64,000 bases of DNA from Eggerthellales bacterium (GTDB lineage Bacteria; Actinomycetota; Coriobacteriia; Coriobacteriales; Eggerthellaceae). The DNA is taken from NCBI GenBank assembly GCA_029225085.1, contig JAQXVU010000005.1:1-64000 (forward strand), read 5' to 3'. The notes under the pieces were generated by a model. The model did no database searches, was not told the DNA's origin, and was given only the letters and a program-made list of their open reading frames with translations. The position numbers were made by a program, and so were the translations under genes. Positions 5,007 through 16,397 of the stretch are shown piece after piece (the stretch's first letter is position 1; every line of letters starts with the position of its first letter).

Positions 5007-5034
5007 AAAGAAAAGCCCTCTGCAAGCAGAGGGC
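5007..5034 (-). terminator. Intrinsic terminator downstream of the small SOS gene
   Basis: On the minus strand the stem GCCCTCTG/CAGAGGGC (5015-5034) is followed by TTTTCTTTT. It lies about 100 bp beyond the stop of the 88-aa gene and also between that gene and nadE. Confidence 0.8.
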
Positions 5035-5085
5035 CGAAGTGGCTTCAGTAGGTTGGCTCACCAAGCGAAAGCTTAAGCACAGAAG

Positions 5086-5134: not shown

Positions 5135-5401
5135 TTAAATCACAGCAATCAGAGCTGCGAGAACGCTGCAAACCGCAGTGCCCAGCACGATGGACGACAT
5201 ACCGGGACGATCCTTCGAACCGGAAAGCGTACCGTACTTCAGCTGATACGCGAAGCTCATCTCGCGCTCATCATAGGTACTGGTGATGCAAGTGAAGGAG
5301 CGGTCATGCGCCAAGGAAGCACAAGCCTCATCAGACCAGTTCATATCGCGCTTAACAGCGACGTTTCCGTAGATATAGTCCTGATTGCTCTGGGTCATCA
5401 T
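5135..5401 (-). CDS. Small tail-anchored membrane protein, LexA-controlled, divergent from lexA
   Basis: An 88-aa product of no family I recognise. Residues 1-66 are soluble and polar with three Cys. The last 20 or so residues (SSIVLGTAVCSVLAALIAVI) form one hydrophobic segment ending at the C-terminus, so the protein should be tail-anchored with a cytoplasmic head. A Shine-Dalgarno GGAGG lies 5 nt before the first of two adjacent ATG codons. The gene is divergent from lexA and its promoter overlaps two perfect LexA boxes, which points to SOS induction. In Bacillus and Corynebacterium the gene divergent from lexA encodes an SOS cell-division inhibitor (YneA, DivS). This protein lacks a LysM domain, so that role is only suggested by position. 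Confidence 0.78.
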   Translation of the reverse strand: MMTQSNQDYIYGNVAVKRDMNWSDEACASLAHDRSFTCITSTYDEREMSFAYQLKYGTLSGSKDRPGMSSIVLGTAVCSVLAALIAVI

Positions 5402-5417
5402 GGCGACCTCCTTGCTC

Positions 5418-5471
5418 TTGCATAGAACCTTTGTTCGTGTTTATAATATGTCGAACAAAGGTTCTATGCAA
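5418..5471. promoter_or_regulatory. Divergent lexA/small-protein promoters with paired LexA boxes
   Basis: A perfect 20-bp inverted repeat: TTGCATAGAACCTTTGTTCG at 5418-5437 and its exact complement at 5452-5471, with a 14-nt AT-rich spacer. Each arm carries a -35-like TTGCAT and a LexA box GAAC-N4-GTTC (5425-5436 and 5453-5464). The spacer supplies TATAAT (5442-5447) for lexA, 18 nt from its -35. On the other strand it supplies TATTAT, 17 nt from its own -35. The two promoters therefore face each other and share the -10 region, so LexA should shut both at once. Confidence 0.88.
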
Positions 5472-5481
5472 TACTTTTAGC

Positions 5482-5493
5482 AAACAAATGTTC
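5482..5493 (+). promoter_or_regulatory. Third, imperfect LexA box before lexA
   Basis: AAAC-AAAT-GTTC differs from the GAAC-N4-GTTC consensus at one base. It lies 22 bp before the lexA ATG, downstream of the expected transcription start, where binding would add autorepression. Confidence 0.6.
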
Positions 5494-5515
5494 TATATTT
5501 TAGTTGGGATACATT

Positions 5516-6163
5516 ATGGCCAAGGAACTCACCGCAAAGCAGATCACCGTTCTGAACTTCATTCGCAAGTTCATCGCTGAAAAAGGCTACGGCCCCACGG
5601 TTCGCGAGATCTGCCAAGGCGTGGGTCTATCCTCCCCTTCCACCGTGCAGGTTCACCTGAACGCTCTCGAGCGAAAGGGCATGATTAACCGCGACTCTCA
5701 GAAGTCTCGATCCATCACGCTTTCTGATTCTGCCGCTGAAGAAACTGAAGAAGCCGCAGCTCAGGCTCCTTCTACCGGCTATTCCCAGGGAACCCTCACC
5801 CTTCCTCTTGTAGGTAACGTAGCAGCCGGCTCCCCCATCCTTGCAGAGGAAAACATCGAAGATCAGGTGATTCTGCCCACCAGCATCGTGGGTGACTCCG
5901 CTTCCTTCATGCTCACCGTGCACGGCAACTCCATGATCGAAGCCGGCATTAACGACGGCGACACCATCGTGGTTCGCGAGCAGTCCACCGCAGATAACGG
6001 CGACATCGTGGTCGCCCTCATCGAAGACGGCGCAACGGTGAAGCGCTTCTTCAAGGAGAAGGACCACATTCGCCTGCAGCCCGAGAACGCTACGATGGAT
6101 CCTATCATCGTCGATGATTGCGCCATAGTTGGTAAGGTCGTTGCCCTGTTCCGCAGGCTGTAA
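5516..6163 (+). CDS. lexA: SOS repressor LexA
   Basis: Represses DNA-damage genes and is inactivated by RecA-stimulated self-cleavage. The 215-aa product has an N-terminal winged helix (TAKQITVLNFIRKFIAEKGY, residues 6-25, through GVGLSSPSTVQVHLNALERKG). A linker carries the Ala104-Gly105 cleavage site (NVAAGSP). The S24 peptidase-type domain has Ser139 in HGNSMIEAG and Lys176 in GATVKRFF. The ATG at 5516 follows GGGAT. The TTG four codons earlier is less likely. Two or three LexA boxes upstream indicate autorepression. Confidence 0.97.
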   Translation: MAKELTAKQITVLNFIRKFIAEKGYGPTVREICQGVGLSSPSTVQVHLNALERKGMINRDSQKSRSITLSDSAAEETEEAAAQAPSTGYSQGTLTLPLVGNVAAGSPILAEENIEDQVILPTSIVGDSASFMLTVHGNSMIEAGINDGDTIVVREQSTADNGDIVVALIEDGATVKRFFKEKDHIRLQPENATMDPIIVDDCAIVGKVVALFRRL

Positions 6164-15299: not shown

Positions 15300-16337
15300 T
15301 TACTCGGAGTCAGCAGCTGGTGCAGAGGCGGCAAGGAGATCAGTGGCGGGAATGCCATACTCCTCACGCACCTGCAGCTCGATGATGTTGCGCAAATCGG
15401 GGTTCTGCTCGAGGGTAGACTTTGCAGCTTCCCTACCCTGTCCCAGGCGCTCTTCACCGTAGGTGTACCAAGAGCCGCTCTTTTTCACGACGCCGCACTC
15501 AGCAGCCATGTCGAGAATGCAGCCTTCCTTGGAAATGCCCTTGCCGTACATGATGTCGAACTCAGCCTGCTGGAAAGGAGGAGCGACCTTGTTCTTAACC
15601 ACCTTCACGCGAACGCGGTTACCGATGGTCTCACCGTTCTGCTTGATGTAGTCCTTACGGCGAATCTCCATACGAACACTGGCGAAGAACTTCAGTGCGC
15701 GACCACCAGGCGTGGTCTCGGGACTACCGAACATGACACCGATCTTCTCGCGGAGCTGATTGATGAAGATGCAGGTGGTGTTCGACTTAGATAGAGAGCC
15801 GGCCAGCTTCCTCAGGGCCTGAGACATAAGGCGAGCCTGCAGGCCAATGGTCGCATCGCCAATCTCGCCTTCGATCTCTGCACGAGGAACCAATGCGGCT
15901 ACGGAGTCGATAACGATGCAGTCGATAGCGCCGCTGCGAACCAGCATGTCGCAGATTTCGAGTGCCTGCTCGCCGGTATCGGGCTGAGAAATGAGAACCT
16001 CGTCGATGTCGACGCCCAAGCAGGCTGCATAGATGGGATCGAGGGCATGCTCAGCGTCGATGAAAGCTACGACGCCACCAAGCGCCTGTGCCTCAGCCAG
16101 AACATGCAGTGCCAGCGTGGTCTTACCGCTAGATTCTGGGCCGTAAATCTCGACGATACGGCCACGGGGTACGCCACCGATGCCCAGAGCGGCATCGAGA
16201 GGCAGAGAACCGGTGGGAATGAAACCAATCTCGAGATGATTGCCATCATCGCCAAGCTTCATGATGGAGCCCTTGCCGAACTTGTTTTCGATCTGATCGG
16301 TGGTGATCTTCAGAAGCTTCTCTTTTTCTTGATCCAT
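15300..16337 (-). CDS. recA: Recombinase RecA
   Basis: Strand-exchange ATPase and LexA co-protease. The 345-aa product from the ATG at 16337 has Walker A GPESSGKT (66-73), the MAW and signature loops ([20 protein letters not shown]), and a normal acidic C-terminus. AGGAG lies just before this ATG. An upstream in-frame start at 16412 would place the promoter and LexA box inside the coding region, so it is rejected. Followed by recX. Confidence 0.98.
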
Positions 16338-16368: not shown

Positions 16369-16397
16369 ATACTATCGAACGTGTGTTCGTTTGTCAA
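16369..16397 (-). promoter_or_regulatory. recA promoter with LexA box in the spacer
   Basis: On the minus strand -35 TTGACA (16392-16397) and -10 TAGTAT (16369-16374) are 17 nt apart. A perfect LexA box GAAC-GTGT-GTTC occupies 16377-16388 inside the spacer. A weaker GAAC-N4-GTAT lies at 16407-16418 upstream. LexA binding would block RNA polymerase directly. Confidence 0.9.

Follow-up and report, generated by a model that had tools for sequence, protein, structure and literature searches.

The lexA locus and its shared promoter

The window, meaning the whole 64,000-nucleotide stretch of Eggerthellaceae DNA that was analysed, carries lexA on the forward strand at 5516 to 6163 (ATG at 5516; TIGR00498, 232 bits). 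Divergent from it, on the reverse strand at 5135 to 5401, is the gene of an 88-amino-acid membrane protein, read from an open reading frame (ORF). A Shine-Dalgarno sequence, AAGGAGG, lies 5 nt before its ATG (5407 to 5413, reverse strand), and a likely intrinsic terminator for the gene, with a 9-pair stem and a T-rich tail, is found at 5014 to 5035 on the same strand.

The sequence and a repeat search show an inverted repeat between the two genes, with 20-nt arms (5418 to 5437 and 5452 to 5471) that are 100% complementary and separated by a 14-nt gap. By chance, 64 kb of sequence would hold about 1e-6 such repeats (64000 x ~20 spacings / 4^20). A TTGCAT -35 element and the GAAC-N4-GTTC core of a predicted LexA box lie in each arm: the left arm holds the lexA -35 (5418 to 5423) and the core of box 1 (5425 to 5436), and the right arm holds the core of box 2 (5453 to 5464) and the divergent -35 (5471 to 5466). 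The central TATAATA (5442 to 5448) reads as a -10 on both strands, as TATAAT at 5442 to 5447 on the forward strand for lexA and as TATTAT at 5448 to 5443 on the reverse strand for the divergent ORF. The lexA promoter is thus TTGCAT-18-TATAAT and the divergent one TTGCAT-17-TATTAT, and the two transcripts are predicted to begin near 5454 and 5436 respectively, about 18 bp apart. This is the arrangement that the original prediction had described, a perfect 20-bp inverted repeat with identical -35 elements and LexA boxes around one -10, and it was confirmed.

In its sequence geometry, with a symmetrical -10 that both directions would use and the predicted spacing of the divergent starts, this promoter would fit the bidirectional promoters described by Warman et al (PMC12825309), where 18 bp is the commonest distance between start sites and a shared symmetrical -10 is engaged by polymerase in either orientation, one at a time. 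The window promoter differs from that type in that a predicted repressor box also sits inside each -35/-10 spacer, and in that conserved genes lie in both directions.

A third, degenerate LexA-like box, AAACAAATGTTC, is located upstream of lexA at 5482 to 5493 on the forward strand, and most relatives have one in the same place. A motif search also found a box of the same type, GAACACACGTTC, upstream of recA (recA at 15363 to 16328, box at 16377 to 16388, both on the reverse strand), between TTGACA and TATACT. This putative recA box serves as an internal control on the form that the LexA motif takes here. Counted across the whole genome, the bare GAAC-N4-GTTC core was no more frequent than its control, so the core by itself is insufficient to define a regulon.

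The 88-residue protein in the window

The product of the divergent ORF carries an N-terminal motif, YIYGNVAVK, and a second one, LKYGTLSG, and has a single transmembrane (TM) segment by hydropathy. AlphaFold predicts one confident helix at residues 70-87 (pLDDT above 90), which terminates the protein, and a possible short helix at 45-56; confidence is low elsewhere, which is most of the model. Neither Pfam nor NCBIfam gave a match with the 88-residue sequence, and so the earlier description of a tail-anchored product with no catalogued domain holds.

A protein search of 100 family genomes with the same sequence matched only itself. Together with the absence of a database family, this is what one would see if there were no gene here and the frame opposite lexA were open by chance. 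Relatives were therefore found by synteny and leave-one-out profiles. With a family profile built without the window, the ORF ranked first of the 1365 ORFs in the window at an E value of 0.014, a modest score. HMMs of the N-terminus alone did not detect the N-terminus of the window ORF, and only the motif pattern detects it. For this particular ORF, from the only genome of its genus among those compared, the evidence of a gene is its membership in the family described below; selection was measured in pairs of relatives.

Conservation in the Eggerthellaceae

Of 124 Eggerthellaceae genomes, 120 yielded a LexA, and comparison of the DNA upstream gave 113 distinct loci. At 99 of them a small ORF ending in a TM helix is adjacent to lexA and divergent from it, as in the SOS division-inhibitor class (six of the 99 were assigned by eye). 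In most cases 22-27 nt separate the start codon from LexA box 1; in the window the distance is 24 nt. In all 17 close pairs dN was below dS, with ratios of 0.10-0.57, and the shifted frames of these pairs mostly showed no comparable synonymous excess. The conserved position, start distance and TM end, along with dN below dS, indicate that the ORF is a real gene in the family. The original prediction was to fall if the frame was not conserved among relatives, and with counterparts at this many loci it survives. A chance open frame is also at odds with the conserved motif and promoter, and with the first rank of the window ORF in the profile search, and we consider it very improbable.

The operator is conserved along with the gene. 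Two box cores 28 bp apart are near-universal among the 113 loci. A divergent -35 matching TTGACA at 5-6 of 6 positions was found at 96 of the 99 ORF-bearing loci versus 4 of the 14 ORF-less ones (Fisher p 4e-9, ignoring kinship), which means that the TTGACA-type divergent promoter is gone in most of the loci without the ORF. The window is an exception at this element, with TTGCAT where its relatives have TTGACA, and this is why its two arms are identical. The exact 20-bp symmetry is unique to the window among the 113 loci, the next longest arms being 15 bp. The identical -35 elements and exact symmetry that the original prediction described are peculiar to this genome and no general feature of the family, and the exact palindrome is a local quirk upon a conserved operator design.

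An intact gene is absent from 14 of the 113 loci, which implies that it is dispensable in some lineages. At one of the four ORF-less loci that have TTGACA (L177), the family gene is frameshifted near its start and the divergent promoter is intact, reflecting either recent decay or an assembly error. At two loci of Adlercreutzia relatives (L016 and L020), neither the gene nor the divergent TTGACA is left, and nrdR is directly divergent from lexA.

Relation to LysM-bearing proteins

The family proteins share an N-terminal motif, Y-x-[VI]-x-G-[TS]-[SA]-A-L, a second motif, I-I-x-F, and a third, L-x-x-G-[ST]-x-x-G, ahead of the helix, with almost nothing beyond it. None of the Pfam or NCBIfam families fits the 36 aligned members, and LysM was found in none of the 36. 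Two family members gave NCBIfam matches at E 0.03-0.05, which were weak and were judged to be chance.

In sister families, the counterparts divergent from lexA (L195-L225) combine a G-[TN]-x-A-L motif and a TM helix with a LysM domain; in three examples from the order and the class, LysM was identified by Pfam at E values of 2e-8 to 8e-12. The G-[TN]-x-A-L motif is common to the window branch and the L195-L225 proteins, and was seen in this order only. The N-terminal motif is present in all 22 LysM-type proteins and in 80 of 89 tail-anchored ones, versus 3-5% of shuffles, and the N-terminal profiles of the two types match each other (hhalign E 3e-7, 93%), which supports common descent. The original prediction had called the protein unrelated in sequence to known inhibitors and a free-standing novelty. 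That part was not supported, as the motif, the profile match, the position and the operator all link it to the sister-family LysM proteins. Its analogy by position to SOS division inhibitors was borne out, with a gene pair under predicted LexA control in which the small gene is divergent from lexA.

The sister-family proteins, and YneA of Bacillus and ChiZ (Rv2719c) of Mycobacterium by their layout, share with the window protein the position divergent from lexA, the LexA boxes (in the window, two predicted ones in the shared promoter) and one TM helix. YneA, ChiZ and DivS are likened to the window family by layout and position; the sequence match is to the sister-family proteins. The window branch differs from the L195-L225 proteins, YneA and ChiZ in lacking LysM and essentially any extracytoplasmic part: most members of the inhibitor class have LysM in an extracellular C-terminal region, whereas the window protein ends within its TM helix.

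On the LexA tree, the presence and absence of LysM cannot be accounted for with fewer than three changes, and the LexA of the window is a basal branch within its family. The direction of change is not given by the tree alone. Loss of LysM is the simpler reading, because the outgroups carry it, as do YneA and ChiZ; in the outgroups of the class, most families have the LysM type and three have TM-only proteins of 29-43 residues. The window protein would then belong to a LysM-less branch which kept the cytoplasmic tail and the C-terminal anchor. One locus of a sister family (L203, genome G164, family f4) encodes a tail-anchored protein with a GTSAL motif and no LysM, and the other sampled f4 members mostly bear LysM. 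On its predicted protein, L203 is a separate LysM loss.

Reduced forms

Still smaller versions are found divergent from lexA. In an Adlercreutzia group (L009, L015, L018, L102, L122, L143, L154) the ORF encodes a TM-only microprotein of 23 residues (e.g. MARYEFPIAFALSTIASFVIFFA). Between L009 and L102, which have this form, nine codons differ, all synonymously and none nonsynonymously. Outside the order, TM-only ORFs of 29-43 residues lie at L248, L249, L252 and L261 (class families f11, f13 and f14), and these are apparently an independent LysM-less reduction.

Known SOS membrane toxins are similar in size to these TM-only forms. The occurrence of 23-43-residue versions next to lexA in Adlercreutzia, f11, f13 and f14 would fit an SOS-induced membrane microtoxin like TisB or DinQ, whose TM helix would lower the membrane potential, leading to slower growth or to persisters, with no specific divisome target. 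We think this unlikely, as most members conserve a cytoplasmic motif that they have in common with the LysM-bearing proteins, and the position and descent of the gene are those of division inhibitors.

Proposed function

We suggest that the ORF at 5135 to 5401 is probably an SOS-induced division inhibitor that targets the septal synthase from the side of the membrane or of the cytoplasm, with the inhibition of division inferred. LexA would repress lexA and the divergent ORF together from one bidirectional promoter, in which both -35/-10 spacers hold a LexA box that also overlaps the point where the other transcript begins. Once DNA is damaged, cleavage of LexA driven by RecA would free both promoters and presumably induce the gene. 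The product would insert through its C-terminal helix, so that the N-terminal tail stays cytoplasmic and hardly any of the protein is exposed on the outside. There it may bind the septal synthase complex, with FtsW, contacted by the TM helix, as the most likely partner, and so delay septation. Since the outside domain is lost and the inside motif conserved, the protein would act through the TM helix, the cytoplasmic motif, or both. By descent it would be a LysM-less version of the lexA-divergent YneA/ChiZ-type inhibitors of Coriobacteriia.

Work on other small inhibitors bears on this. The TM segment of YneA docks on TM7 of FtsW, and its LysM is needed to block septal wall synthesis; YneA lacking LysM localises without blocking division (PMC13396833). 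The LysM of ChiZ was reported unnecessary (PMC3989709). SosA of Staphylococcus aureus is, like the window protein, small, divergent from lexA, with a single TM segment and no LysM, but it has an outside tail (PMC6851548): its TM segment is at residues 10-30 and its C-terminus is extracellular, whereas the window protein has its TM helix at the very C-terminus and an N-terminus predicted to be cytoplasmic. No sequence similarity between the two is claimed. SidA and DidA of Caulobacter, which act on FtsW/I/N (PMC4211646), are TM proteins that DNA damage induces, and they are very small, about the size of the 23-residue Adlercreutzia form. They come from another phylum, no motif shared with the Eggerthellaceae family is claimed, and DidA is SOS-independent.

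The behavior of YneA without LysM means that a LysM-less protein need not inhibit division. That its TM segment alone docks at FtsW yet is non-toxic (PMC13396833), that the gene has repeatedly shrunk and disappeared, and that the L177 copy is frameshifted would suit a vestigial or re-purposed remnant, which after LysM loss docks at the divisome without stopping division or has a minor role in regulation or as a protease adaptor. We give this reading little credence: both the long and the 23-residue forms are under purifying selection and the strong regulated promoter has been retained, which together indicate that the gene does something. We infer that for the window protein this something is a checkpoint role, as a division inhibitor.

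A broader claim is possible, though we would sooner bet against it: that these proteins form a branch of SOS inhibitors with no wall-binding outside domain, which block septation from the cytoplasm or membrane through a short conserved motif, G-[TN]-x-A-L ... IIxFP, and a tail anchor, and which were serially reduced to 23-residue TM-only checkpoint microproteins, with LysM lost several times independently.

Significance

Among lexA-linked SOS division inhibitors, the variation here lies in the missing outside domain and the serial shrinkage. The open-licence literature yielded no papers that deal with these genes, whether in Coriobacteria or in Eggerthella, and none on SOS cell-cycle control in gut Eggerthellaceae. 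At a single locus with a recurring operator there is now a natural series, from LysM-bearing to tail-anchored to TM-only to absent. Given that LysM is required in YneA and reportedly dispensable in ChiZ, this series makes it directly testable which part of such a protein stops division, and the gut Eggerthellaceae gain a named candidate for SOS control of the cell cycle.
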